Origin: Deltaproteobacteria bacterium
Lineage (GTDB): Bacteria > Bdellovibrionota > Bdellovibrionia > Bdellovibrionales > Bdellovibrionaceae
NCBI GenBank assembly: GCA_017302835.1
Contig: JAFLCC010000005.1
Span: forward strand, 186,001 to 250,000
Reading direction: 5' to 3'
Length of the DNA: 64,000 nt
Positions 43,127 through 63,781 of the stretch are shown piece after piece. The notes beneath the pieces are model-generated. The model searched no databases. It was not told where the DNA came from and saw only the letters and a list, made by a program, of their open reading frames with translations. The position numbers and the translations under genes were made by a program. Each line of letters begins with the position of its first letter. Position 1 is the first letter of the stretch.

Positions 43127-46100
43127 TCATTGAATTAAAAACAAAAAGTCTTCTTTTGTGAGCCGTCCACTTACTGATGTGGTAATGTCTTCAGATTCGC
43201 TAAATAAGGAATCAAAGTAGCCTTTTTTTCTCGATTTAAGGGATTCGATTTTTTCTTCGACGGAGTTTTTCATAATGAGTCTGTATACTTCGACATTTTT
43301 TGTTTGTCCCAGACGGTGGACTCTGTCAGTGGCTTGATTTTCAACGGCAGGGTTCCACCAAGGTTCTACATGAAAAACGGTAGAGGCTTTTGTTAGATTA
43401 AGGCCAACTCCGCCTGTTTTTAGGGTCATTGCCAAAACCATGGGTTGCTCTGACTTGTCAAATTCTTCGAGAATCATTTTTCTTTTATTCTGCGGAATGG
43501 CCCCGTTAATAACTAAACAGCAAATGCCTGCCTCTTTCAAGAGAGAATGAATTCTTTCAAGAGTTGTTAAGAATTGAGTAAATATAAGAACGCTTTGATT
43601 GTTTTCAATCAGTTCTTTTATCGAATCGATCAGATGTTCTAGTTTTGGCGAAACTTTATTGTAGAATATTTTAGGTAAGTTGTTTGGATCAGAACAGGTT
43701 TGCCGTAATCGCAACAATGCGGTAAGCATGGCCAATTGGCTTTTTCCTTCCCCTTGAGATAGAAGGAGTTCATTAATTTGATCGTTATGGGAAAGAGCTA
43801 GTTTTTTGTAAATTTCTAATTGTTCTTTCTCAAATTCTAAAACGATGCTTTTTTCATGTTTTTGAGGCAAATGAATATTTAATTTATCTTTTGTTCTTCG
43901 TAAAAGGATGGGTTTGATTTTAAGTTTCAGGTCTTCCAAGTCTTCTTTTGTTAAATTTTTTCCCACTCCATAAATTTGGTTAAAGGTCTCATATTGACCT
44001 AAACAGCCAGGAAGGATGAGATCGGCGATGGAATAAAATTCCATGTAGTTATTCTCCAAAGGAGTGCCTGTAAGAGCTAATTTAAAGTCTCCATGAAGTT
44101 GTCTGGCGCAGGTTGCTCGGTAGGAAGAAATATTTTTTAAATATTGAGCTTCATCAAATACGATGACCTGCCATTTTATTTTTTTAAGAATTTCAATATT
44201 TTCACAAAGCACTCCATAGGTAATCAGCACATGAACGGATTTTTTAGTATTTTCACAAAGTTCTTTTAAAATGATTTCCTTTTTTTGAGAGTTGAAATGA
44301 ATTAAATTCAAGTTTGGCGTAAATTTCTTGGCTTCATGGATCCAGTTAAACACCAAGGAAGTAGGCATTAAAATCAAATTCAATTTTCCACTTGCATGAG
44401 TTGAAGATATTAAATCCAATTTAGAAAGGTGCTCGAAAAATGATAAGGTTTGTAGGGTTTTTCCCAGACCCATATCATCCGCCAAGATACCACCAAGTTG
44501 TAAATTGAACAAATCATTGACCCATTGAATTCCTTCTATTTGGTATGGTTTAAGGATTTTTGTCAGTTTTTTATTGATAAATAGATCATTTTTTTGAGCA
44601 TTTAAATTTAGATAATAATTTAAAATCTTGTTCCATAGGGCAGAAGAAGACTCGACCTTAACTCCGCGATGGTGCAAACTTAAAAGCTCCAAAATTTCTG
44701 ATTTAGGAAGTCGATAAAACTCCTTTTTTTCCCCGTGACCAGGGGTATTTTTTTTGTTGGAAATCTTTTTCCAAAATCTCTCTAAGGATTTCATTTTCGG
44801 CAATGTTTTAGGGTCAAGCAAATAATATTTTCCCTTAAAAAGAACCATGCCCATGGAATCTTGAAATTTAAATTCGTCGATATTCACATTCATACCATTG
44901 AAAAATATTTTTGGATGAAGTTCAAACCAATCCAGATTGTCGTCATTGAATTCAATAGATGTCGTCACCTCATCTGCGGTGAGGGTGACGACGTCATGGT
45001 CATCATAGGCAATTTGCCAACCTTTACTTAGTAAGTAGGGAATTTGTTTTAAAAGTTCCATACCATGTTTAGGTTCTAGTTCTATTTTATGAAATTGCTC
45101 TTTGCGTAGGTATTTAGAAATAGTTTTAGCCAGAGAAGAAGACTCTTTATCGTTCAATAGAAGGATGTCAGTATTTTTCTGAAATAATGATTTAATAAGG
45201 GTTTCGTTCTCTTTGAGGGAAACTTTTATGGAAGCCATTCCCTTATCTATTGACAGATAACTTTCAAGAATAACTTTAGCAAATTGAGCTACAATGATTT
45301 TTTCATTTTCGAGAATGATAACTTCACCAGGACTTGTAAAGGTCATTGGGGCTAAATTCAACCTTTCTAGGATGTGGAGTATTGAGGATTTAAGGTAAGA
45401 ATAAACTTTTTTAGAGATAATCATCTTCAGAGGGAGTCCGTCGACTTTGAGTAAAACAGCGCACTTCACATTCAAAAACTCAATTAACTCATCTTCAGAT
45501 TTAATAGAGGTTCCATCGCTAGAAGGGTCACCTAAATAATAGTTCATTGTTTCTAACAAAATAAGGGAAGCAATACCTCGATGTCTTAAAAATTTAAGGT
45601 CCATCTCTCTTTTAAAATTCTTTTTTCCAGAAGCGAGTTCAGACCTGTCTTCGTAAAAAAAGGCAGACATACCGTCTAGGAATCCTTGGGAAAAAAAGCG
45701 AATATCCTCTAGAAAGTTCATCAGATAGAAGGAATTTAAATCACTTGAGACTTTAATTGCAAAAGTGAGTTCATGAGGTGATTTTAAGGTGTTCAAAGAA
45801 AGAACGGGATGAGCTTTATTTGAACTGATAAGCTGAGGGGAATTAGAGTATTCATAGGAGATTTTTTCTTTGTTCAGCCAGCTGAGAATGGGATTTAAAT
45901 TAGTAAATTTTTGGATACGAATGTTGCCTGATTGTTCAGCAGTTTCTGAATCCATATCTGGATCAAAATCCCAATAATTTAATTGATTTCTGATTTTATT
46001 TTCAGTGCTGAGAATGGGGATAATCGTTAGTTCTTTAGTATCTAAATTATAAAATGAATTATTTATAAAATATAAATTCTCTGGAACAAATGGGTTTGTA

Positions 46101-46762
46101 TTTTTATTCCACAGAGAGAATCCCCCTGAATAAAAAGACCTTTCACTGAAGGTATCTGCGGTAGGTCCTAAAATAAAATCCTCTTTTAAATGTTCATTTA
46201 TAGTGAAAGAATAAACTGGCAATAATTTGATGCTCCGGTTAGCTGGGTTAAAGCCTGAAGATAAATAGATTTTAAATTTTTCTTTTTCAGTAAGAATGTC
46301 GGCCAGCTTAAAAGCATTTTCAATTAAGATCAATATTGCATTGGCAATAATATAAAAATCAATGATTCGGTTTTCATGAAAAAGGCTATTTAAGAAACTA
46401 GCTAACTTTGTATTTTCTTTTAAAACCGCTGGATTGACATATTTTTCAAAGTCTGGTGGTAAGAAACCTTGGGGCAACAAACCAGTTATTCCAAAATTGA
46501 AAATTTCAAAAATATTATAGGTATTTCCATTCGCAAAATGAAAAAGGAGAGTGTTTGCAAGCCTCAGAGTATCGAGTCTATAGTAGGAATTCTTACTTGA
46601 AATATATGCTTTCCTTAGATGAGAGACATTTTCAATTTCATTGTAAAAAGGGTAGGATTGTAGATGGAATTTTTCTTCGATAATGTAGGAGCTTAGATCC
46701 TTAAGGTTTGCTCTATTGTCATTTGGTATATTAAGACTTATAAATTGCAGCTTGTTGTACAT
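43127..46762 (-). CDS. SNF2-family helicase-like ATPase
   Basis: A DNA-dependent ATPase/translocase of about 1,211 residues. The C-terminal third is the SNF2 engine: LKPYQIEGIQWV, Walker A in ADDMGLGKTLQT (~residue 762), Walker B VIVFDEAQYLKN (~869), ALTGTPLEN, then the second RecA lobe with DRVHRLGQTKNVEVYRLI. The ~740-residue N-terminal part is unrecognised. ATG 46762 is chosen because GGGAG lies upstream and MYNKLQFISLN begins the conserved-looking part; the frame itself opens at 46843. It could be a stand-alone chromatin-remodeller-like enzyme. Such genes also occur in defence islands, and a Wadjet operon lies 2 kb away on the other strand, but there is no direct link. Confidence 0.9.
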   Translation of the reverse strand: MYNKLQFISLNIPNDNRANLKDLSSYIIEEKFHLQSYPFYNEIENVSHLRKAYISSKNSYYRLDTLRLANTLLFHFANGNTYNIFEIFNFGITGLLPQGFLPPDFEKYVNPAVLKENTKLASFLNSLFHENRIIDFYIIANAILILIENAFKLADILTEKEKFKIYLSSGFNPANRSIKLLPVYSFTINEHLKEDFILGPTADTFSERSFYSGGFSLWNKNTNPFVPENLYFINNSFYNLDTKELTIIPILSTENKIRNQLNYWDFDPDMDSETAEQSGNIRIQKFTNLNPILSWLNKEKISYEYSNSPQLISSNKAHPVLSLNTLKSPHELTFAIKVSSDLNSFYLMNFLEDIRFFSQGFLDGMSAFFYEDRSELASGKKNFKREMDLKFLRHRGIASLILLETMNYYLGDPSSDGTSIKSEDELIEFLNVKCAVLLKVDGLPLKMIISKKVYSYLKSSILHILERLNLAPMTFTSPGEVIILENEKIIVAQFAKVILESYLSIDKGMASIKVSLKENETLIKSLFQKNTDILLLNDKESSSLAKTISKYLRKEQFHKIELEPKHGMELLKQIPYLLSKGWQIAYDDHDVVTLTADEVTTSIEFNDDNLDWFELHPKIFFNGMNVNIDEFKFQDSMGMVLFKGKYYLLDPKTLPKMKSLERFWKKISNKKNTPGHGEKKEFYRLPKSEILELLSLHHRGVKVESSSALWNKILNYYLNLNAQKNDLFINKKLTKILKPYQIEGIQWVNDLFNLQLGGILADDMGLGKTLQTLSFFEHLSKLDLISSTHASGKLNLILMPTSLVFNWIHEAKKFTPNLNLIHFNSQKKEIILKELCENTKKSVHVLITYGVLCENIEILKKIKWQVIVFDEAQYLKNISSYRATCARQLHGDFKLALTGTPLENNYMEFYSIADLILPGCLGQYETFNQIYGVGKNLTKEDLEDLKLKIKPILLRRTKDKLNIHLPQKHEKSIVLEFEKEQLEIYKKLALSHNDQINELLLSQGEGKSQLAMLTALLRLRQTCSDPNNLPKIFYNKVSPKLEHLIDSIKELIENNQSVLIFTQFLTTLERIHSLLKEAGICCLVINGAIPQNKRKMILEEFDKSEQPMVLAMTLKTGGVGLNLTKASTVFHVEPWWNPAVENQATDRVHRLGQTKNVEVYRLIMKNSVEEKIESLKSRKKGYFDSLFSESEDITTSVSGRLTKEDFLFLIQ

Positions 46763-46990
46763 TCTCGTCTCCCAAGGCCTTCTTCTAGACAATGTTTGAC
46801 AGAATGTCCAAAATAATCTCAGATGCCCCATATTAACGATCAAAATTCGGGAGGCCTTTAAGCAGCAAGGTTCTTGATTTAGTTTAGAGAAATGAAAACT
46901 ATTTCTAGCTAGGCGATAGAACCGAAGTTATTCACCATCAGCAGTTCTCTTGTCTTTAACTAAAACGATACGGAAAGGCCAATTAAAGTT

Positions 46991-47611
46991 CTAAAATTCT
47001 TTTTTTTTGATAATCAATTCTTCGATGTTTTTAAGTCTTCTCTCCACTTCGATTTCTAATCGATCTTGACGCTTGTAAAGCTGATCATAGCCTTCAAGAA
47101 CGAATCGATTTCTGGCATTTTGCTCTTCCATAAGTACAGCCATTCTGTGAACTTCAGCTAATACTTTATCAAGTTTTGATTCAATTGTATTAAATCTCGC
47201 ATCGATTTCACTGAATCTAGCTTCCATTTTGTTAAACCTTGCATCAATTTCGCTGAATCGGGCTTCCATTTTGTTGAACCTTGCATCAATGTCGCTGAAT
47301 CGAGCTTCCATCTTGTTGAATCTGGCATCGATGGAAGCAAAGCGGGCGTCGATTTTGTGAAATTTTGAGCTAAGTCTTTTTTCTGTAGATTTAATTTCTA
47401 GCTTCAATTCTTTTTCTAAATGAAAAAACATTCCTTGAGTAGCAACTAATTTTTTTGAATCCAAAATTGGAGATAGGGATTTTGGAGTTGCTTTCTTTTT
47501 ACTTGTTTTTAAGGAGTTCATTTTTTTCATTAATTTAGGAGCTTCTTTTTTAGAATTTTTTTCTTTAGATTTCTTTATTTTCTTCGGATCGGTTTTCATA
47601 TAAGGTGCCAT
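46991..47611 (-). CDS. Coiled-coil protein with 14-residue repeats
   Basis: 206 residues. The first ~50 are Lys-rich (KKIKKSKEKNSKKEAPK, MKKMNSLKTSKKK), followed by a long predicted coiled coil. Its middle repeats a 14-residue unit, IDARFNKMEARFSE, about four times (two heptads each; 42-bp repeats in DNA near 47190-47350). A charged helical tail follows. The pattern is seen in phage-fibre-like and DUF1640-like proteins, but no function can be given. The start codon lies inside an inverted repeat (47597-47630). ATG 47599 is an alternative start. Confidence 0.75.
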   Translation of the reverse strand: MAPYMKTDPKKIKKSKEKNSKKEAPKLMKKMNSLKTSKKKATPKSLSPILDSKKLVATQGMFFHLEKELKLEIKSTEKRLSSKFHKIDARFASIDARFNKMEARFSDIDARFNKMEARFSEIDARFNKMEARFSEIDARFNTIESKLDKVLAEVHRMAVLMEEQNARNRFVLEGYDQLYKRQDRLEIEVERRLKNIEELIIKKKEF

Positions 47612-48720: not shown

Positions 48721-50283
48721 TTGACCAAAGTATGGAAATTGAATAGCTCTAGGTGGCCGGTGCAAAATACTAATGATTTATTAAATTCTAAGTTTAATCA
48801 GGAGCAGCTGGATAATTTATTCAGTCATCATCCTTACATTTTGCTTTTGCAAAAGGATGATTGGAAAGAATATGCGATCATCATTCAGGATCTTTATGAG
48901 ATACTTGAAGACGAGAATTCAAAATTACCAGTTGAGGTTTTTAAGACTTATTTAATAAAGTTTTATACGGGGAAAAAAAATCAAAGTATTGAGAATAAAA
49001 TTCATCAATTCTTTTTAATGACCATTGGTGAGTTGAAGGTTTTTAAAGACACTCACGATAGTCACGGTCAAAGGTATATTGAAACGACTCGTTCTGGAAG
49101 GCTGTTACTTCAATGGCTGAAAAGCTTGCTCAATCAACGAACAAAATATTCGGGGACAGGGGCAGAGACCTTACTGGGCTCATTGAACGATATTTTGGTA
49201 AGTCGAAAGCAGTTAAGCCAGGAGGAAGCTCTAGAGCATCATTCTGAAAGGATAAAAAAATACCAAGAAGACATAAAGAAAATCAAAACTCAGGGCGTTC
49301 AATTTGCGGAGCTATTGCCAATACCTCATTCTAATGAAGCTCTTTTTAACCAAGCTGATGAAGCTGCTAATCAAATATTGGCAGCCGTAGAAGATGTGAA
49401 ATTGGCCATAGAGAAGGAACGTCAAGAGCTGTCAAAAAGTTATTTCGAAGGACGACGGAGTGCTGGAAAGAACCTAAATGCCATCACCGAATTTTATGAA
49501 GGATTATATAAATCGCCTGAGTATATCAGTTATGAGCAGGCAAAAAACTTACTTTCCTTTTTAAATAATTATGGGAATCGGTTTCGAATTAAAAATGTAG
49601 ATCGTATTTTAAATGAAATAAAAAATAAAAAATTGATAGAAGAACATGAAATTAAAAAATCATCTTTAAAAAATTTCAATCAACATTTTTCAAATTCAGA
49701 TTTAAATATTCAAGACAAGATCAGGGCGCAAATTAAGATACTCCAACAACAGGTCACTTATGCCATGTCCACAGATGTGATGGGATTGCAGGGAACGTTA
49801 AAAGAAATATTAAAACTATCATTTCAGAATAAAAATGATTTCTTGGATTATTTTGTCAGTCATCCGAGCCAAATAAAATTAACTTCGGACTTTGACATGG
49901 GCGGGGTGACTCCCTTTTTGTTTGAAATTCCTGTAGAATCTGAATCGCAAAAAATCTTTTCAGAAGAGCTCAATGCTGATGAAGAAAAAGACTTGATTTT
50001 GGCATTGCTGCAAGCTGAGGAGATTACTCTGCAACAGGTTCTTCTTAAATTTGACAGTGAATTTAAAAAGAACCCCAAATTGAAACTCTCTGAATATCCC
50101 TTTCAATTTGGGATAGCTGAATACTATGTACTTTGTGATATTTCACTTTTTAATGAACGGTTTGAGTCTTATTCTAAAGATTTTTTTGATCTCCAATTAA
50201 CTACAAAAGTAGGTGATTTTGTTTTGCGAAAAGTTCCTGACGGGCAATTTAAATTATCATTAGATGTGGATTTGAAAAATTAA
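48721..50283 (+). CDS. jetA: Wadjet system protein JetA (DUF3375-like, kleisin/MukF-like)
   Basis: First gene of a four-gene Wadjet operon, which recognises and cleaves circular plasmid DNA. JetA is the MukF-like subunit joining JetB to the JetC motor. The 520-residue length and mostly helical content, with a long coiled part around residues 180-260, fit. The winged-helix-like N-terminus has SRWPVQNTNDLLNSKFNQEQL. Its identity rests largely on context, since the three genes that follow are clear JetB/C/D. The start is a TTG at 48721: upstream in-frame codons give no ATG before the stop at 48691, and no good ribosome site is seen, so the true start may differ by a few codons. Confidence 0.8.
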   Translation: MTKVWKLNSSRWPVQNTNDLLNSKFNQEQLDNLFSHHPYILLLQKDDWKEYAIIIQDLYEILEDENSKLPVEVFKTYLIKFYTGKKNQSIENKIHQFFLMTIGELKVFKDTHDSHGQRYIETTRSGRLLLQWLKSLLNQRTKYSGTGAETLLGSLNDILVSRKQLSQEEALEHHSERIKKYQEDIKKIKTQGVQFAELLPIPHSNEALFNQADEAANQILAAVEDVKLAIEKERQELSKSYFEGRRSAGKNLNAITEFYEGLYKSPEYISYEQAKNLLSFLNNYGNRFRIKNVDRILNEIKNKKLIEEHEIKKSSLKNFNQHFSNSDLNIQDKIRAQIKILQQQVTYAMSTDVMGLQGTLKEILKLSFQNKNDFLDYFVSHPSQIKLTSDFDMGGVTPFLFEIPVESESQKIFSEELNADEEKDLILALLQAEEITLQQVLLKFDSEFKKNPKLKLSEYPFQFGIAEYYVLCDISLFNERFESYSKDFFDLQLTTKVGDFVLRKVPDGQFKLSLDVDLKN

Positions 50284-50319
50284 AATGAAAGACGTCAAAA
50301 GTATGATAGGAAAAAAAAG

Positions 50320-50928
50320 ATGGAAATAAGTAAAAGTCAATTACTACTGGCCGGAGCTTTGAGACGGCTATTTAAGAATCGCTATTTGTTAAAAAATAGA
50401 AATGAAAAATGGTATCAAACCATAATAGATTTACGTGAATTGATTCAAAAATCTTTAGATAGTTTTTTGATTCAATTAGAAATAAATGAATCGCTTGGAG
50501 TGGCTTATTTGAAGCCAATAAATGATTCGATTGAGGATCTGGTTCAATATCAAATCGGTCGAAGCAAGGTATTGTCACCTCTGGCAACGGCCTTACTGAT
50601 TAAACTCAGGTATGATCGGCTTCAATTTATTTTAAATCCGACACCGGAAGGTGCGGCTTTGGTTAGGCTAGAAGAGTTAAAAGAGTATTTAATCCAGTTT
50701 GATAATTCTAAAATGGATAGTCAGTTTGAAAAAAATTACCGTAGGGCCATCGATGATATGCTTCAATTAGAGGTTTTGTTTGAGACAAAAGAAAATAGTG
50801 AGTTGTTTGAAATTTCTCCTCTATGTGAAATTTTGATGAGTTTAGATGATTTACAACAACGAAAAACCCAAATGGAAACTTATTTTCAACATTATAAAAA
50901 TAAATCTTCTCAAGAGGTCCCATGTTAG
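50320..50928 (+). CDS. jetB: Wadjet system protein JetB (DUF4194, MukE-like)
   Basis: 202 residues, the usual size for the MukE-like Jet subunit, which binds JetA and DNA. It shows two winged-helix-like helical domains; the ESLGVAYLKPI...LATALLIKLRYDR stretch is a typical DUF4194 feature. An AGGAAAAAAAAG ribosome site precedes ATG. It overlaps the start of jetC by 7 bases, so expression is coupled. Confidence 0.85.
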   Translation: MEISKSQLLLAGALRRLFKNRYLLKNRNEKWYQTIIDLRELIQKSLDSFLIQLEINESLGVAYLKPINDSIEDLVQYQIGRSKVLSPLATALLIKLRYDRLQFILNPTPEGAALVRLEELKEYLIQFDNSKMDSQFEKNYRRAIDDMLQLEVLFETKENSELFEISPLCEILMSLDDLQQRKTQMETYFQHYKNKSSQEVPC

Positions 50929-53900
50929 ACAACGGCTATAGTTTATCACGAGTTGAAATTTTAAACTGGGGAAATTTTTATGGATATCAAAAGTTTCAGC
51001 TTAAAGACTTGTCAGATGATGGTTTGTTATTTGCTCCCCCAGCTGCAAGTGCCATACTTGGCGTAAATGGTTCTGGGAAATCAACATTGATTGATGGGAT
51101 CATGATCACTCTGCTTCCCTTTGAGAACTCCCTAAAATTGGGTGTGACCAATGATCTCGAAGTAGGTTCTGGCGGTGGGCGAACTATCAAAGATTATGTT
51201 CTCGGAAAACATTCCTCAACCCACTCTTCTATCGGAACGCTCCATGGTCAAGCGGGATATGGGCGAAAAGATGGGTGTTCCATTTTTATGCTGGTTTTTC
51301 AGCATAACAGAAATGTGAATAAATTTATAACTCTTGGCAGGATTTGGTGGTTTCAGAATTATCAAGTCAATGAGACTCATTTGGCATTTATAGGTTATGA
51401 TCCACTAAGTTTAAATCAGTTTCTTGTTAATAATGAAAGTCCGAAAAATTCAAAAATATTTCGCAATCTTTTAAAAGAGACTTTTCCACATTTTCAGGTT
51501 TACGATGTGATGCAAAGCTATTTTACCGCTTTAAGCAGTAGCTTTGGAAATATTAGCAAAGAAGATTTAAAGATCTTAAACCGCGCTTTTTATGTGAAAT
51601 CAATTTCGCAGATCGATCAGTTTATTCGAGAAAATATGCTTCTGGAGCAAGAAAATCCTCATTTAGAAAGGCTTTTAGAAAATGTTAGAAACGGTAAGGA
51701 AATCGCACTGGCTATTCAGAGTTGTGAAAGAAAAATCATCCTTATCGAAAAAATACTCAGGAATCTTGATAAATTAAAACTTTGTCTTGAAAAGAAAAAG
51801 GAATTTGATCAACAATTGCAACTTAGTAGTTATTACGCGAATTGGATTGATATTGAAAAATCTAAAGAAACCATAGCCAAACTAAAAGCTGAGGTTGAAA
51901 ATCTGGAACGACAATATCCCATCGTACAAAAAGAAGTATTAGAAATCGAAAACACTCACAAACAACTTCAAGTCCAAATTTCACAAAATGATTTGGAATC
52001 ACGATTGCAGAAAATGGATATTGAATTACAATATTTAAATCAAAATTTAACTCAACTAGATGGTGAGATTGAAAAAAAATGGTTAGAAGCAAAGCAGTTA
52101 AATTTGAAATTACCAAATTTTAAAATCGAAAAAGAAATGGATCAATTTGCCGCCAAACTTCCTGAGATAACAAACAGTTTGGAATCTGAAATTAATTCTT
52201 ATTCTTCAGAAGTCGAATTATTACGAAATAAAAAATATAATATCGAGCTGCTATCAGAAAGTTTAAAAGCCGAGATTAAGCATTTATCCGAAACAAAGTC
52301 ACTGATTCCACATGAGTTATATTCCATTAAAGAGATGGCGTTGCAGAAATTAAAAATTCCACAGGATAAAATATTTTTTGTGGGTGAGTTGATTCAGGTT
52401 AAACCTGGATATTTGCAAAATCGTAAGGCCATTGAATCAGCTCTTTTTCCTATTTCTAGAAATATTTTAGTTCATCCAGACTATTTGAACGTTATGACAC
52501 AGTGGTTGGATCAAACGGGGTTAAAATCTGACGTCGTGGTTAAGAGAATCAGTTCTGAAGAGCTTTTATCTGCGGATAGTAGGGATAGAATAGATAAAAA
52601 CGATTCGGATGATATTCTGAAAATGATCGATTTTTTGCCTGATACCGAACATGATTTTGGTTATTACTTAAAGAAATGGTTGGAAGATGTTTTCGACTAT
52701 CAATTAGTGAGCTATAAGGATTTTAAAAACAAGCAGGGAAAGTTGGTAACATCTGAAGGTCTGGTCAAGACAGACTCTCGAACTATGAGAAAATTAAAGA
52801 GTCATTTTTCATTCTCTTTGGGATGGGATAACCAGGAACACCTAGCTTTGAAAACAAAAGAATTGGTAGAGTTACAAGAACAATATTCTCAAATTAAAAT
52901 TCAGATTGAAGTAATTAATAAATGCTGCTCGCAAGCTGAAGAAAAAAGATATTTTCTTAAGGAATTTAATCATCGGTTTCCTTTTTATCGAGAATTCCCT
53001 TCGATAACAGCAAAATTGAAAAGCCTAAGTGATGAAAAAAAGAAACTCTTAAAAGAAAATCCAGGATATGAAGAACTTAAATCTGAAGAGAACAGGCTTT
53101 ATAAATACCTGAAGGAATTGCAAAAAAAAGAAAGTCAAATACACACTCAGGTTGAAGTCCATAGAACCCAAATGGAAAAGCTGACAGTTGTCATTCCTGA
53201 AGAGGAAAATCGGCTAATGGCCTCGTTACAGCATCAGAACTTGGTTCATCTATTTCAATCAAAAGAGATTTTATTTCAGAAGTTAACAGATTTAAAACAG
53301 TATTTGTTTGAAAAGAAACTACATCGATTAGGCTATGAGGCGGATCTCAAGAAAGATTTTGATCGAATGGACATTCAGGCAGAATCGGCCAAGTCTCAGG
53401 TTTCGGAATCTTTAAATTCCTTTAAGATGACATTTGAAGATCCGAATTTGCCTTTCCTATTGCCACCAAGTCACGAGGTTTTAATTTTTGCTCAGGAGTG
53501 GGAGAAAAATCTATCGCGATTGAAAGAAACGGAATTGCCAAAGGCGCAAGAAAAATGGAAGAAATTTTTCGATCAAATATTAATAGATTCTGTTAAAGAC
53601 ATGATCAATGAAATCAAATCGAAGCTTTATGATGTCGAACAAAATATCACCTCGATAAATGAAGTGTTAAAACTGACTAATTTTGAAGATTTAATGAATG
53701 AAAAAAGATACTTGCGAATTCATTTTCATGCCTCTGTAGACGAACGAATTCGAAGGTTCAAAAAAAGCATTCAAGACATAGAAAAACTGCTTGGAGCTCA
53801 GATCAGAAATCAAATTGAAACGAATTCTGAGGTCGTGATGAAGGTGTTGGTTCCTTTTGTGGAAGAGTTTCAAAATGATTTAAATTTTAGAAATTTTGTA

Positions 53901-54416
53901 ACTGATGTGCGCAACCACTTCCATTTTGAGGTTCATTCCTTACGAAGAGCCATGCCTACAGACGAGGGGTCTTTTTTACAGGAGGATCAGAAGGAAGATC
54001 AGATTGTGGAGGTCTTCTCTGGGGCGAAGAAAGATGCGAAAAGTTCTGCGCAAACAACTCATTTGGCCTATACCTTACTGGCTTCGTGTTTGTCTTACCG
54101 ATTTAAATTCAATGACCCTCAATTTGGACAAGAGACTCCAAGAATTTTAATTTTGGATGAATTTGGCGGTAAGTTTGATAATGAAAAACCAAAAGACATT
54201 ATCAAACTTTTGGATCAAATGGGTTTTCAATCAATTTTAGTTAGTCCGATGTCCAAGGCGGATCTTTTAGCTGGATCGATCAACCAGTTGGTATTTGTAC
54301 ACAAGGTTTCTGCAACTCATTCGAAAGTGAGATCGATTCCTTGTAGCTCCAAGGAAGATTATGATCGGCTATTAAGTTCACAAAGAACGGAGCCCTTCAC
54401 TGCGGGCCCATCATGA
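50922..54416 (+). CDS. jetC: Wadjet system protein JetC (SMC/MukB-like ATPase)
   Basis: The ATP-driven motor of the anti-plasmid complex, 1,164 residues. N-terminal head: RVEILNWGNFYGYQKF and Walker A GVNGSGKST (residues 47-55). Then a long coiled coil, a hinge-like domain near residues 465-540 (KIPQDKIFFVGELIQVKP...ALFPISRNILVHPDYL), a second coiled coil, and the C-terminal head with the Walker B block ILILDEFGGKFDNEKP (~1078). An SMC-like signature region (FSGAKKDAKSSAQTTHLAYTLLASCL) precedes it. JetC is the Jet counterpart of MukB. The C-terminus overlaps the jetD start by 4 bases (ATGA). Confidence 0.92.
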   Translation: MLDNGYSLSRVEILNWGNFYGYQKFQLKDLSDDGLLFAPPAASAILGVNGSGKSTLIDGIMITLLPFENSLKLGVTNDLEVGSGGGRTIKDYVLGKHSSTHSSIGTLHGQAGYGRKDGCSIFMLVFQHNRNVNKFITLGRIWWFQNYQVNETHLAFIGYDPLSLNQFLVNNESPKNSKIFRNLLKETFPHFQVYDVMQSYFTALSSSFGNISKEDLKILNRAFYVKSISQIDQFIRENMLLEQENPHLERLLENVRNGKEIALAIQSCERKIILIEKILRNLDKLKLCLEKKKEFDQQLQLSSYYANWIDIEKSKETIAKLKAEVENLERQYPIVQKEVLEIENTHKQLQVQISQNDLESRLQKMDIELQYLNQNLTQLDGEIEKKWLEAKQLNLKLPNFKIEKEMDQFAAKLPEITNSLESEINSYSSEVELLRNKKYNIELLSESLKAEIKHLSETKSLIPHELYSIKEMALQKLKIPQDKIFFVGELIQVKPGYLQNRKAIESALFPISRNILVHPDYLNVMTQWLDQTGLKSDVVVKRISSEELLSADSRDRIDKNDSDDILKMIDFLPDTEHDFGYYLKKWLEDVFDYQLVSYKDFKNKQGKLVTSEGLVKTDSRTMRKLKSHFSFSLGWDNQEHLALKTKELVELQEQYSQIKIQIEVINKCCSQAEEKRYFLKEFNHRFPFYREFPSITAKLKSLSDEKKKLLKENPGYEELKSEENRLYKYLKELQKKESQIHTQVEVHRTQMEKLTVVIPEEENRLMASLQHQNLVHLFQSKEILFQKLTDLKQYLFEKKLHRLGYEADLKKDFDRMDIQAESAKSQVSESLNSFKMTFEDPNLPFLLPPSHEVLIFAQEWEKNLSRLKETELPKAQEKWKKFFDQILIDSVKDMINEIKSKLYDVEQNITSINEVLKLTNFEDLMNEKRYLRIHFHASVDERIRRFKKSIQDIEKLLGAQIRNQIETNSEVVMKVLVPFVEEFQNDLNFRNFVTDVRNHFHFEVHSLRRAMPTDEGSFLQEDQKEDQIVEVFSGAKKDAKSSAQTTHLAYTLLASCLSYRFKFNDPQFGQETPRILILDEFGGKFDNEKPKDIIKLLDQMGFQSILVSPMSKADLLAGSINQLVFVHKVSATHSKVRSIPCSSKEDYDRLLSSQRTEPFTAGPS

Positions 54417-55558
54417 AGGCGGCAATTTCAACGAAGGAAGGGTATCTCAAAAAAGAGGAATACTTAGATCAAGCCGAGGATGAATATCTTTTTTCTGAGG
54501 CAGGTGATTTTTATTTTGAGATAAGAAAGAGGCCAGGGAGTTCTGATTTTTATGCGCAGTTAGAAACTGAATTGCAATCTCAAAACTTATTTAAGGTTGT
54601 CGAATACCGTGAAATCAAAGAAGGCTATGCTAGAATTTCAAGACCTTCGCGAATCCATCTGAATCAAGAACAGCTTTTAAGCGTGAAACCTGAATTGAAA
54701 TCCCTGAAAGAAAATATAAATTTATGGCATCACTTGTATGGGTTTATATCAGTTAAGGAGTTTATTAAGAAAAATAAAGGGGAATGCTTAAAGAAAATCG
54801 AAATTGTGGAACCCTGCTTAGATGTTTTTCAATTTTTACTTAATAATTATGAAAAAAATAAAGGGCTGCTCGCCAGACAAATACCCCACGGTTATTCGAC
54901 AAAGCTTATCGGAAAGGAAAAATTACTTCTTAAAGTTTTTCAATTTTGGCAATTCTCTGTGTTAGGGAATGGAGACTCTTTGATTTCTTGGAAAGATTTT
55001 TTTCGCTATTTTCAGCTGCTTAAAACGCCACCAGAATTTAGAATTTATGCGCCTCAAGTGGTAATGCAGAACAAAGAACTAATCGATTTTCAGGGAATTA
55101 TTAATAATGAGAATTTAAATGAATACCGATGGCCTGATTTAAAAGGCTCTTTGATCGTTGAAAATTGGGAATCTTTTTATGCGCTGGCATCTATGAAACT
55201 TCCTTGTTTGTTGATCTGGGGAGGAGGGTGGAAGGCTAGTTTGTTGAAATCAATGCTAGAAAAAATACCAAAACCCTTATTTTATTGGGGGGACATGGAT
55301 AAAGAGGGCTATGAGATATTGGGTTTTTTACAAAATATCTCAAAAACGAAAATCACTCCTCTCTTTATGAATGAAGAAAGTTTCAATTTAAATTCTCATT
55401 TGAAACAAAAAAAAGAAATTTATTTTGGCCCCTTTAAAGATTTACATAATCTTCAATCCATTTATGAATTTGTATGTAAAAATGGCTACCAAATAGAACA
55501 GGAACAAATTGAAATCAAAGAGACAGAGTTCAGAAAATACTGGTTATGGCAGGTCTAG
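54413..55558 (+). CDS. jetD: Wadjet system protein JetD (Toprim nuclease)
   Basis: The nuclease subunit that cuts plasmid DNA after it is extruded by JetABC. The N-terminal region fits DUF3322 and the C-terminal ~140 residues the DUF2220 Toprim domain. The Toprim acid residues are visible as Glu250 in LIVENWESF, and the Asp pair in YWGDMDKEGYEIL (Asp294, Asp296), all intact, so the enzyme should be active. The 381-residue length is typical. Its start overlaps the jetC stop; no further gene follows in the operon. Confidence 0.93.
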   Translation: MKAAISTKEGYLKKEEYLDQAEDEYLFSEAGDFYFEIRKRPGSSDFYAQLETELQSQNLFKVVEYREIKEGYARISRPSRIHLNQEQLLSVKPELKSLKENINLWHHLYGFISVKEFIKKNKGECLKKIEIVEPCLDVFQFLLNNYEKNKGLLARQIPHGYSTKLIGKEKLLLKVFQFWQFSVLGNGDSLISWKDFFRYFQLLKTPPEFRIYAPQVVMQNKELIDFQGIINNENLNEYRWPDLKGSLIVENWESFYALASMKLPCLLIWGGGWKASLLKSMLEKIPKPLFYWGDMDKEGYEILGFLQNISKTKITPLFMNEESFNLNSHLKQKKEIYFGPFKDLHNLQSIYEFVCKNGYQIEQEQIEIKETEFRKYWLWQV

Positions 55559-58810: not shown

Positions 58811-59269
58811 GTGTTAAAAAAAATGATAGTATTTGTTTCATTAATTGGTTTTCACGCGCTGGCCGCAAATTATGGAATGGCTGGGTGTGGGTTGGGAGCT
58901 TTAGTATTCCAAGATCAGCCGGGTAAAATACAAATTGTTGCAGCAACTCTTAATAATATAGTGTCTCCGCAAACTTCTGCAATAACAACAGGTACCTCTA
59001 ACTGTTATGAAGGGTCACGAGATGAAGTGAGTTTGCGTTTTATTGAAAATAACAAAACGGCATTAAAAGATGATGTTGCTCGTGGGCAAGGCGAGACACT
59101 TGATGGTCTGATGACTATTTGGGCTTGCAAGGAAAAAAATAGTGTTCAAATGAATTTAAAACAAAATTATAACAATATTTTTGAGTCAAATGAAACTCTT
59201 TCTATTCTGCAAAATTTAAAATCTAACTCTGAAGTTCAAAAAACTTGTCAAAGTGATTCACAATCATAA
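58811..59269 (+). CDS. DUF3015 family exported protein (copy 1)
   Basis: GTG start with GGAGG 5 bases upstream. A short signal peptide precedes NYGMAGCGLGALVFQDQPGKIQIVAATLNN, the DUF3015 N-terminal signature, with a later TTGTSNCYEG and a cysteine near the end. 152 residues, probably periplasmic. Function unknown. It stands 18 bases before a second DUF3015 gene and in a run with the DUF4105 gene, a grouping seen in Bdellovibrio-like genomes. Confidence 0.85.
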   Translation: MLKKMIVFVSLIGFHALAANYGMAGCGLGALVFQDQPGKIQIVAATLNNIVSPQTSAITTGTSNCYEGSRDEVSLRFIENNKTALKDDVARGQGETLDGLMTIWACKEKNSVQMNLKQNYNNIFESNETLSILQNLKSNSEVQKTCQSDSQS

Positions 59270-59287
59270 TTAAGAAAGGAATAAAAA

Positions 59288-59800
59288 ATGAAATTATTAT
59301 TTATAGTACTAACTGCATTTTCTTTTAGTTTTACTTTGGCTAAAGAAGTTTCTCAAGGAAAGCCAAAAACGAAAAAATCCTACCAACGACCTTATGGTAT
59401 GGCAGGATGTGGATTAGGCTCCATTGTTATTCCTCGTCAGGGATCTCAAATATTTGCTGGGACAACAAATGCAACCTCCTATAGTCAATTGTTTGGTATC
59501 ACTTCTGGAACTTCAAATTGTGTAGATGATTCGTCCTCAGAAGTGGCATCTAAAATGGATAACTATATTCAGGGAAATAAATCTCAATTTATTGGGGATG
59601 CAGCTAAAGGAAATGGTGAGACAATTATAGCATTGTCTGAAGTTATGGGATGTTCAGAGTCATCTAAATTAGGAAGGGCTTTAAAAGCAAATTATCAAAA
59701 TTTATTTTTAGAAGAGAATACAAACATAGTGACTGACAATATCATCACGCTGATTCAAAACGATGATCAATTGTCACAACAATGTAAATTGACTATCTAA
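59288..59800 (+). CDS. DUF3015 family exported protein (copy 2)
   Basis: A paralogue of the gene before it: signal peptide MKLLFIVLTAFSFSFTLAKE, then a basic linker (KPKTKKSYQRP), YGMAGCGLGSIVIPRQGSQIFAGTTNAT and TSGTSNC. AGGAATAAAA precedes the ATG. 170 residues. The tandem pair probably arose by duplication, and each copy retains the cysteine pattern, so both may work together or bind the same ligand. Confidence 0.87.
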   Translation: MKLLFIVLTAFSFSFTLAKEVSQGKPKTKKSYQRPYGMAGCGLGSIVIPRQGSQIFAGTTNATSYSQLFGITSGTSNCVDDSSSEVASKMDNYIQGNKSQFIGDAAKGNGETIIALSEVMGCSESSKLGRALKANYQNLFLEENTNIVTDNIITLIQNDDQLSQQCKLTI

Positions 59801-59820
59801 ATTAAATTTATTAGTTGTTG

Positions 59821-61908
59821 ATGGTGCTATTGTTAATTCTTGCAAATAAATTTGCCAACATAAGATTTGCTGAATTCAAATTGGGGACAAAGTCCCCAAT
59901 TTTTATTTTAGTGCTTTTCTTGCAACTTTGTTTTTTCTCAAGAACTTTTGCAGAAACCGAACCTAAAGAATCATTCTTTGAAGAATCAGAAGCAAATGGT
60001 TTTTTGAAAAGTTCTCTGTATTATAAAAATAAAAACTCATTTTATACCACTATTTCGAATCGAGAGATACTCAACATTTGGGGAAAATTAAAAGCAAATA
60101 AAAGCTTTCAGAAAAGACAATGGGAGAAATTGCTTCATTTTGAAAGGGACCTCATTCTTCGAAAAAGAAGTCAGGTGACGGACACACGATTTTTTATGAG
60201 TTCAGTTGGTTATAAAAGCCCTGAAGACGAGATGAAGGAAACGTTGTTTAGTTTTTTTTGGAAAACAGATAAGCTGAATCATTTGTACGATGATTTTAAG
60301 GTGGAAAAGCTTCAACATCCAATCTGTAAATTTCCTGCAAGATTAAAATTTATTAAAACTGAACTGAACCAAAACGAAATTTTCAAAAAGCTTCCTATTC
60401 CTGATTGTTATTATCAAGATTTATTTCTTAGAAGTTTAAACCCTCAGTCCATTAGCTTTGTTTTTTCTAGCTACTACGCAAACAGTCCAGGGTCTGCCTT
60501 TGGCCACACCTTTTTTAGAGTCAATAAAAAAGAAAAAGAAGGAAGGAAAAAACAAGAGCTTTTAGATTATGGAATCAGTTTTGCGGCGAATGCTCATACT
60601 GATAATCCATTAATGTATGCTATTTTGGGCCTGGCAGGAGGATTTAACGGAACCTATACCAATGTTCCCTATTATTATAAAGTGCGCGAGTATAATGATT
60701 TTGAATCTAGAGATCTGTGGTCTTATGAATTAAATCTAACAGAGGATGAATTAGAAACATTGGTTTTTCATTTTTGGGAAATTGGTCCTCATTTCTTTAC
60801 CTATTATTTTTTTTCTCAAAACTGTTCCTACCAAATGTTAACAGCCTTAGAGGCGGCAGCGCCACGGCTTTCTTTTTCTGAAAGATTACCTGTTTTTATT
60901 ATACCTGCAGACTCGGTAAAAGTTTTATTTACAGAAAAAGATTTTGTAAAAAACGTTGAATTCCGACCGAGTTTGCTAAAACAATTTGATTCCCGATTTT
61001 CTCTTTTAGATCAGAGTGAAAAAAAAATCTTTATTTCCTATGTTAACGATCAAAAACTCCCTTTGGAGTACAATCATCTCACCGATGAGAGAAAAAGCAT
61101 GGTGATTGATACCGTATTGAATTATGCTGATTTAAAAGATCCTTTTGGGATCGCAAAAAGGGAGGGGCCATGGTTCGCATTCAAAGAGACCAATCTATTA
61201 ACTCGAGCCAGGTTGGATTTTATATCAGAGGAACTTAAAATTCCTACACCTGAACATGAAAGGCCTGATAGTTCACATCCATCAAGCCGGGTCGCCCTAG
61301 GTTCTGGGGAGGAAAAAAGCAGTCAATCAAAGAAACTATTTTTTGAGTTCAGATTTGCGCTTCATGATTTACTTGATTCAAAAAGGGGTCTTCCTAAGTT
61401 TTCCCAATTGGAGTTCGGAAATTTTAAGTTTTCAACAGTCGGCAATTCGATCTTTTTGGATCATTTTTCATTTTTTAAAGTTCTGCAACTGAATCCATTA
61501 TCTGAGTTAGAAAAAAAACTTTCTTGGTCCATGGAGGTGGGTACTCAACGATTTGATTTTTGTGATTCAAGAATTGATTGCTTTGGTCATGGCTTTAAAT
61601 CAATGTTTGGTTATGCCGTCGATTTGAACAGTTTTACGATGTGGTTAATGCCAACTCTTGAATATCGTTATGGCGAATACTTTGAAAAAGAAAGAAATCA
61701 TTTTGCTTATGGAGGTCAGGGCGGACTCATTTATTCTTTATCAGATAAACATCGATTTTATTTATTTTATGAGAAGCAATGCTTTAATGCTTCTCATCAG
61801 GTTGAAGGAAATCACTGGGAATACCGTTTTAATTATCAAAAAAATATTTCTATTTCGATGATCTCTAGTTCACAAAACTATCAGGGACTTTTCTACCTTT
61901 ACTTTTAA
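59821..61908 (+). CDS. DUF4105 family exported protein (Lnb-like)
   Basis: About 696 residues. The DUF4105 core is SFVFSSYYANSPGSAFGHTFFRVNKK, with HTDNPLMYAILGLAGGFNGTYTNVPYYYKVREYNDFESRDLWSYELNL and FFSQNCSYQMLTALEAA (Cys). The N-terminus is unclear: starts at TTG 59815, ATG 59821, TTG 59881 or GTG 59911 are all in frame, none with a clear ribosome site. TTG 59881 gives a normal signal peptide (GTKSPIFILVLFLQLCFFS...TFAETEP). A strong hairpin (59878-59902) lies inside the upstream part. The C-terminal ~200 residues look beta-rich and end in Phe (FYLYF), as in outer-membrane barrels. Its function is unknown. Confidence 0.85.
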   Translation: MVLLLILANKFANIRFAEFKLGTKSPIFILVLFLQLCFFSRTFAETEPKESFFEESEANGFLKSSLYYKNKNSFYTTISNREILNIWGKLKANKSFQKRQWEKLLHFERDLILRKRSQVTDTRFFMSSVGYKSPEDEMKETLFSFFWKTDKLNHLYDDFKVEKLQHPICKFPARLKFIKTELNQNEIFKKLPIPDCYYQDLFLRSLNPQSISFVFSSYYANSPGSAFGHTFFRVNKKEKEGRKKQELLDYGISFAANAHTDNPLMYAILGLAGGFNGTYTNVPYYYKVREYNDFESRDLWSYELNLTEDELETLVFHFWEIGPHFFTYYFFSQNCSYQMLTALEAAAPRLSFSERLPVFIIPADSVKVLFTEKDFVKNVEFRPSLLKQFDSRFSLLDQSEKKIFISYVNDQKLPLEYNHLTDERKSMVIDTVLNYADLKDPFGIAKREGPWFAFKETNLLTRARLDFISEELKIPTPEHERPDSSHPSSRVALGSGEEKSSQSKKLFFEFRFALHDLLDSKRGLPKFSQLEFGNFKFSTVGNSIFLDHFSFFKVLQLNPLSELEKKLSWSMEVGTQRFDFCDSRIDCFGHGFKSMFGYAVDLNSFTMWLMPTLEYRYGEYFEKERNHFAYGGQGGLIYSLSDKHRFYLFYEKQCFNASHQVEGNHWEYRFNYQKNISISMISSSQNYQGLFYLYF
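59878..59909 (+). terminator. Rho-independent terminator-like hairpin inside the DUF4105 5' region
   Basis: AAATTGGGGAC, loop AAA, GTCCCCAATTT, then TTATTTTAG: an 11-bp perfect stem with a U-rich tail. It fits a terminator of the DUF3015 genes or an attenuator ahead of the DUF4105 gene. Confidence 0.7.
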
Positions 61909-62656: not shown

Positions 62657-63781
62657 ATGGGTTTGGATAAAGAAACCAATAAGGAAAGAAAAATCGAAGA
62701 AGTCAATTTCGCGAATTATCGACAGCCAGCAGAATGGGAAGCTCATGAGGCTGTTTGGCTTGCCTGGCCTTACGACAGGGAGTTATGGCAAGAAGACTTA
62801 GAGAAAGCTCAGGCCGAGTTTGTTGGACTTTGTCAGGCCATTGTAGATTTTGATACGCAAACAGGAAAGTTTCGTGGGGAAAAATTAAATGTATTAATTC
62901 CTACGGCTACAGCCTATCAGGAGGCAAGTGGGGCTTTGAAGGGGCTTCCTGTGAGCTTTTTTGAAATACCCTATGGTGATATTTGGCTTCGTGATACGGC
63001 TCCTATATTTGTCAGAAAAGAAAATAAACTTGCTGCCGCTTGCTTTCAATTTAATGGTTGGGGTGAAAAGTACAGGATGCCTGGCGATGAAAATGTGGCT
63101 TACAAAATCGCTCAAAGAGTGGCTCAGCAAAGTGGTGCCGCTCAGGTCGTTCATTCCTTTGTTTTAGAAGGAGGATCTGTGGAAGTCGATGGAGAGGGCA
63201 CTTGTCTTTCTAGTCGTCAGTGTCTGCTTAACCCCAATCGGAATCCAAATCTGAGCCCCAAAGAAGTGGAAGCCAAGGTTTGCAAAGCTTTAGGAGCTGA
63301 GAAAATGCTATGGGTAGACGAGGGGCTTTTGAATGATCACACCGATGGGCACATTGATACCATTGCTAGGTTTGTGGCTCCTGGGGTTGTTCTTTGCATG
63401 GAGGCTCAAACTTCCGATGATCCCAATCACGCAGCCCTAGCCGCTATAGCTCAGGCCTTGTCGGTACAGGTGGATGCTCAAAATCGTCGTTTGCAGGTGG
63501 GAAAAATCCCATCACCAGGATTAGTTCTAGATGAAGATGGAGAAATCATGCCCGCCAGTTATTTAAATTTTTATATTGGAAACTCGACAGTGGTGGTGCC
63601 GACCTATGGGAGTCCTTGGGATCAGGCCGCTGTTGACGCCATTGGTACGTATTTTCCAACGAGGCGTACGGTAGGTTTATCGGCAAAGGGCATTTTAACC
63701 GGAGGAGGAGCCTTTCACTGCATCAGTCAACAACAGCCTTATGGAGTATCTCTTGGAATATCTCTTGGAGTATCGAAATGA
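62657..63781 (+). CDS. aguA: Agmatine deiminase
   Basis: Cytosolic hydrolysis of agmatine to N-carbamoylputrescine and ammonia. The family features are EWEAHEAVWLAWPYD, YGDIWLRDTAPIFV (substrate Asp/Arg region), NDHTDGHIDTIARF, and the catalytic cysteine at about residue 355 in GGGAFHCISQQQP. Length 374 is typical. AGGAGAATAA precedes ATG. Its stop overlaps the next gene's ATG (ATGA), so aguA-aguB form a tightly coupled operon for putrescine synthesis from arginine-derived agmatine. Confidence 0.94.
   Translation: MGLDKETNKERKIEEVNFANYRQPAEWEAHEAVWLAWPYDRELWQEDLEKAQAEFVGLCQAIVDFDTQTGKFRGEKLNVLIPTATAYQEASGALKGLPVSFFEIPYGDIWLRDTAPIFVRKENKLAAACFQFNGWGEKYRMPGDENVAYKIAQRVAQQSGAAQVVHSFVLEGGSVEVDGEGTCLSSRQCLLNPNRNPNLSPKEVEAKVCKALGAEKMLWVDEGLLNDHTDGHIDTIARFVAPGVVLCMEAQTSDDPNHAALAAIAQALSVQVDAQNRRLQVGKIPSPGLVLDEDGEIMPASYLNFYIGNSTVVVPTYGSPWDQAAVDAIGTYFPTRRTVGLSAKGILTGGGAFHCISQQQPYGVSLGISLGVSK

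Follow-up and report, generated by a model that had tools for sequence, protein, structure and literature searches.

Four consecutive genes in the order jetA-jetB-jetC-jetD are located on the + strand at positions 48721-55558 of the window (the whole stretch of 64,000 nucleotides analyzed here), as determined from open reading frame (ORF) calls and translations. The four ORFs encode proteins of 520, 202, 1164 and 381 amino acids (aa), respectively, and none of the frames is broken. The jetA gene (48721..50283) is separated by 36 bases from jetB (50320..50928), which has 7 bases (50922-50928) in common with jetC (50922..54416); jetC and jetD (54413..55558) have 4 bases in common (54413-54416). 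The preliminary description of this locus had proposed a four-gene Wadjet operon with this order and these sizes and overlaps, and the ORF calls bear it out. The G+C content of the operon is 34%, against 38% for the window; because some neighboring genes have a similar composition, a foreign base composition of the operon was rejected. No direct repeats of 11 bases or longer were found flanking the operon, and promoter and terminator scans yielded signals at or below chance.

Elsewhere in the window, the - strand encodes a 206-aa coiled-coil-like protein with repeated units MEARFSEIDARFNK and weak, below cut-off family matches (46991-47611). On the + strand, two DUF3015 proteins are encoded in tandem, and the protein after them carries an Lnb_N periplasmic domain and DUF7840/DUF7843; the three genes may form one operon (58811-61908). 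A Porphyromonas-type peptidyl-arginine deiminase family protein (PF04371, E 4.5e-109) is encoded at 62657-63781, also on the + strand.

The longest jetA frame opens with TTG 48721, but the true start is probably GTG 48760. This codon lies 39 bases downstream of the TTG, just 3' of AGGTGG (48751..48756, + strand), a candidate ribosome-binding site read directly from the sequence, and would yield a 507-aa JetA, compared with 499-507 aa in five relatives. The first approximately 22 residues counted from the TTG are alignable to no relative outside the genus and are modeled with pLDDT below 50. A longer open jetA frame (526 aa) is present only in the congener G063, which makes the GTG start likely rather than proven. 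The earlier suggestion that the TTG start may keep expression low has no good basis, given the better GTG start behind AGGTGG.

Identification of the four subunits

Profile searches leave no doubt about the identity of JetB, JetC and JetD. JetB matches PADLOC JetB1 (E 2.4e-18) and Pfam DUF4194 (E 1.4e-18, 67.6 bits, cut-off 32.7), and is a MukE-like KITE protein. JetC, an SMC/MukB-like ATPase with matches in both PADLOC and Pfam, is recognized by PADLOC JetC1 (E 2.3e-118, 395 bits) and by the solved JetC (E 9e-22), to which it can be aligned along its full length. The JetD matches are to PADLOC JetD1 (E 7e-22) and Pfam JetD_C (E 5.7e-17, 62.1 bits, cut-off 22). The best PADLOC models are JetB1, JetC1 and JetD1, that is, those of type I rather than type II or III; an NCBIfam search of the jet proteins gave no useful match.

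The catalytic residues noted in the preliminary description are present in the alignments, namely, Walker A (GVNGSGKST, residues 47-55, 51060..51086) and Walker B (LILDE, residues 1076-1080, 54147..54161) of JetC, and Glu250, Asp294 and Asp296 of the Toprim nuclease JetD. The predicted JetD structure (pLDDT 84.1) is matched along its entire length by MksG of Corynebacterium glutamicum (8b7f; 394 columns, E 3e-14); a further match is Pseudomonas aeruginosa JetD. The metal-binding residues E250 (55160..55162) and D294-M-D296 (55292..55300) line up with the corresponding acidic residues, a glutamate and aspartates, of MksG and JetD, and the two aspartates and the glutamate are invariant among seven aligned sequences, as are R155, K164, E362 and E364, the last two within an IEQE motif. 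The position of E250 coincides, exactly or very nearly, with that of the residue changed in the E248A mutant of Escherichia coli JetD. Most of the nuclease activity of MksG is lost in the E236A and D279A mutants; its residues E349 and E351 are counterparts of proposed nucleophiles, and a DNA-binding role has been proposed for R156 and K166 (PMC10123090). By our reading of the motifs, JetD R155, K164, E362 and E364 appear to be equivalent to the four tested or proposed MksG positions.

JetA is very divergent in sequence. Its match to PADLOC JetA1 is weak (E 1.1e-4), and its match to Pfam DUF3375, the family by which type I JetA is recognized, stays below the cut-off (13.9 bits against 28.6, E 0.025). 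A sequence-only profile search against solved structures found no JetA. In a profile-profile comparison, the JetA profile matches canonical JetA with E 2e-5 over 443 columns. The best solved matches of an AlphaFold2 model of moderate confidence (seven-sequence alignment, pLDDT 67.7) are to the JetA subunit of E. coli JetABCD (8q72_E, E 1.2e-6; 9qxt_E, E 3e-5), followed by MukF. Because the whole-chain TM-scores are low (0.21-0.25), the identification relies on how the matches rank, on where the gene lies and on the profile-profile comparison. JetA is a MukF-like kleisin by its predicted fold and by this comparison, not by plain sequence search. The preliminary description had proposed to check the assignment by a search with Jet models and by structure prediction of JetA, and would have given it up if JetA and JetB matched no profile; the JetB match is strong, and the weak JetA match is backed by the structure.

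Distribution and the variant JetC signature

JetD_C was detected in 7 of the 66 genomes of the family, including 2 of the 6 genomes of the genus. The closest relatives of the operon are those of the congener G063 (69% JetC identity), G029 and G065 (50% each), G042 (47%), G346 from another family of the order (46%) and G259 from another family of the phylum (39%). The jetABCD order is the same in G063, G029, G065, G042, G259 and G011, and the G346 contig stops before jetD. The genomic neighborhoods differ. In G063, the operon sits between the genes of a pirin-like protein and a RecD2 helicase, and the metallo-hydrolase and acyltransferase pair bordering the operon in the window is found on another contig; in other relatives, the operons adjoin AbiE toxin-antitoxin genes, a YhcG nuclease gene or a Schlafen-AlbA gene. 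The metallo-hydrolase/acyltransferase pair is conserved in the congeners and the other neighbors are not, so a clean empty site was not demonstrated among them. With two of six genus genomes positive and different neighbors, the operon is accessory. Absence from closely related strains, combined with a lack of protection against plasmids, had been named beforehand as an observation that would speak against a Wadjet system; the absence from the other four congeners is what is expected of accessory defense. Carriage on viral contigs was rejected, none of 70 pattern matches being a relative. As for the special interest that had been attached to Wadjet in a probable predator, a link of the operon to predation is not supported, nothing having been found either way.

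An SNF2 helicase is encoded two genes upstream of jetA in the window (43127-46843, - strand). In G346, which belongs to the same branch, an SNF2 helicase gene is directly divergent from jetA (L133:6064-10000). A link of the nearby helicase to the operon was rejected given that relatives of this helicase are present in most genomes of the family; its proximity is probably coincidental, although a shared insertion site may also account for it. In G043 (L023:1003-9669), canonical jetA, jetB and jetC genes are followed, in place of jetD, by a gene for a 1037-residue SNF2 helicase that overlaps the jetC end, and G058 (L026:5364-8669) contains a decayed copy of this JetABC-SNF2 helicase arrangement. 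No JetD_C match was found in these two genomes, which are incomplete (72% and 83%, respectively), such that a JetD encoded elsewhere could have been missed; the arrangement may represent a variant that lacks JetD and has a helicase as partner.

The ABC signature of JetC reads KSSAQ (residues 1040-1044, 54039..54053) instead of the usual KSGGQ, so that the canonical SGG[Q/E] signature is missing from this protein; the serine and glutamine are retained, and both glycines are replaced with small residues. We know of no source that makes this signature a defining feature of Wadjet. KSSAQ is present in all seven genomes of the branch (G000, G063, G029, G065, G042, G259 and G346), whereas G011 JetC has KSGGQ, and nine other JetC sequences that were read have SGGQ or SGGE. 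In the JetC tree, which carries a long-branch warning for the G011 and P. aeruginosa sequences, G000, G063, G029, G065, G042 and G259 form a cluster (support 97/99) with G011 as the sister, apart from canonical type I. Relatives were sought in this phylum and in plasmid records, and the branch comprises at least seven genomes of the phylum.

A decayed or inactive Wadjet, in which the altered signature abolishes the ATPase activity of JetC, would fit the substitution of both signature glycines, which matter in ABC ATPases, but is very unlikely, considering that all four frames are open and that KSSAQ persists, together with invariant Walker A and B motifs, across seven genomes whose JetC identity falls to about 37%, which points to purifying selection and not to decay. 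Conservation of KSSAQ over about 37-70% JetC identity argues for function.

The N-terminal IFDR motif of JetB contacts JetD in a studied type I system (PMC10586767). This motif is not evident in the JetB proteins of the branch. Several canonical type I relatives that were compared likewise show no evident IFDR motif, and therefore its absence is no criterion on its own.

Predicted function and comparison with known systems

The components that characterize Wadjet are all found at this locus: the gene order, JetC with Walker A and B, a KITE JetB, a kleisin JetA (by the moderate-confidence model) and a Toprim JetD with its acidic residues. We conclude that the operon most likely encodes a complete Wadjet anti-plasmid system that is probably functional and comes closest to type I (probability roughly 0.88), in agreement with the preliminary description, which had assigned it to this known kind and all four subunits of which are now identified. 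The observations behind this conclusion are the four subunits in order, Walker A and B, the JetD metal site, the accessory distribution and the separate Smc and ScpA of the host. Against it speak the strong divergence of JetA, the KSSAQ signature of JetC and the lack of an evident IFDR motif in JetB. In the type I model, two JetABC motors fully extrude circular DNA, meet and license JetD, whereas DNA that is linear or very large is spared (PMC10586767). By analogy, JetC dimers, together with JetA as the kleisin and JetB as the KITE subunit, would form a DNA-loop-extruding motor; two coupled motors would reel in an entire small circular DNA and then meet, and this meeting would license the Toprim nuclease JetD to cut the circle, with linear DNA and the large chromosome escaping cleavage. 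The studied homologs are our basis for inferring assembly of the complex, loop extrusion, plasmid specificity and cleavage; nothing in the operon contradicts the type I mechanism.

Alternatively, the operon might encode mainly a chromosome-organizing, MksBEF-like condensin with a nuclease partner, serving a housekeeping rather than a defense role. The SMC-kleisin-KITE architecture is common to MukBEF and MksBEF, and at 69% the JetC identity between the window and its congener resembles the values for two core genes (64% and 79%), so that a long residence, in which the operon was lost and moved repeatedly, is no less possible than recent exchange. This explanation nevertheless appears improbable: the operon is absent from four of the six genus genomes and from most of the family, its neighbors differ among relatives, the host carries its own 1200-residue Smc-like frame and ScpA, and an intact nuclease subunit, JetD, is present. 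The patchy occurrence, the different neighbors and the host Smc and ScpA make defense likelier than a housekeeping condensin.

The kind of system is already known. The branch could represent a distinct subtype, with a KSSAQ JetC, a barely recognizable JetA and a JetD recruited through a contact other than IFDR; this proposal is plausible but unproven, and we put it at rather less than even odds. If it is correct, the branch may differ from the studied systems in ATPase rate, processivity of extrusion or plasmid-size cut-off. The differences are conserved across the branch, but nothing suggests another mechanism. Among the open-license literature, we found no paper on Wadjet in Bdellovibrio or on a JetC signature variant. 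The branch is visible to annotation tools, given that PADLOC JetC models already match it well. The findings extend Wadjet to a branch of Bdellovibrionota in which a missed JetA could lead rule-based annotation to score the system as incomplete, and the conserved signature change offers a natural test of ABC signature variability in a loop-extruding SMC motor.

Compared with type I Wadjet JetABCD of E. coli GF4-3 and P. aeruginosa PA14 (8q72, 8as8, 8dk2, 7til), the gene order and the kinds of subunits are alike, as are the full-length JetC similarity, the JetD metal site and the JetA fold. The differences are the JetC signature (KSSAQ versus SGG[Q/E]), a JetA that is barely matched by sequence and the lack of an evident IFDR motif in JetB; the JetC here is about 18% identical to a P. 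aeruginosa plasmid JetC. MksG of the C. glutamicum MksBEFG system has the same acidic residues as JetD and has a sequence distant from it (20% across the fold alignment). The MukBEF and MksBEF condensins follow the same SMC-kleisin-KITE plan, consistent with the match of the JetA model to MukF, but lack the JetD nuclease, whereas the operon in the window encodes one; together with the accessory distribution, the nuclease points to defense.
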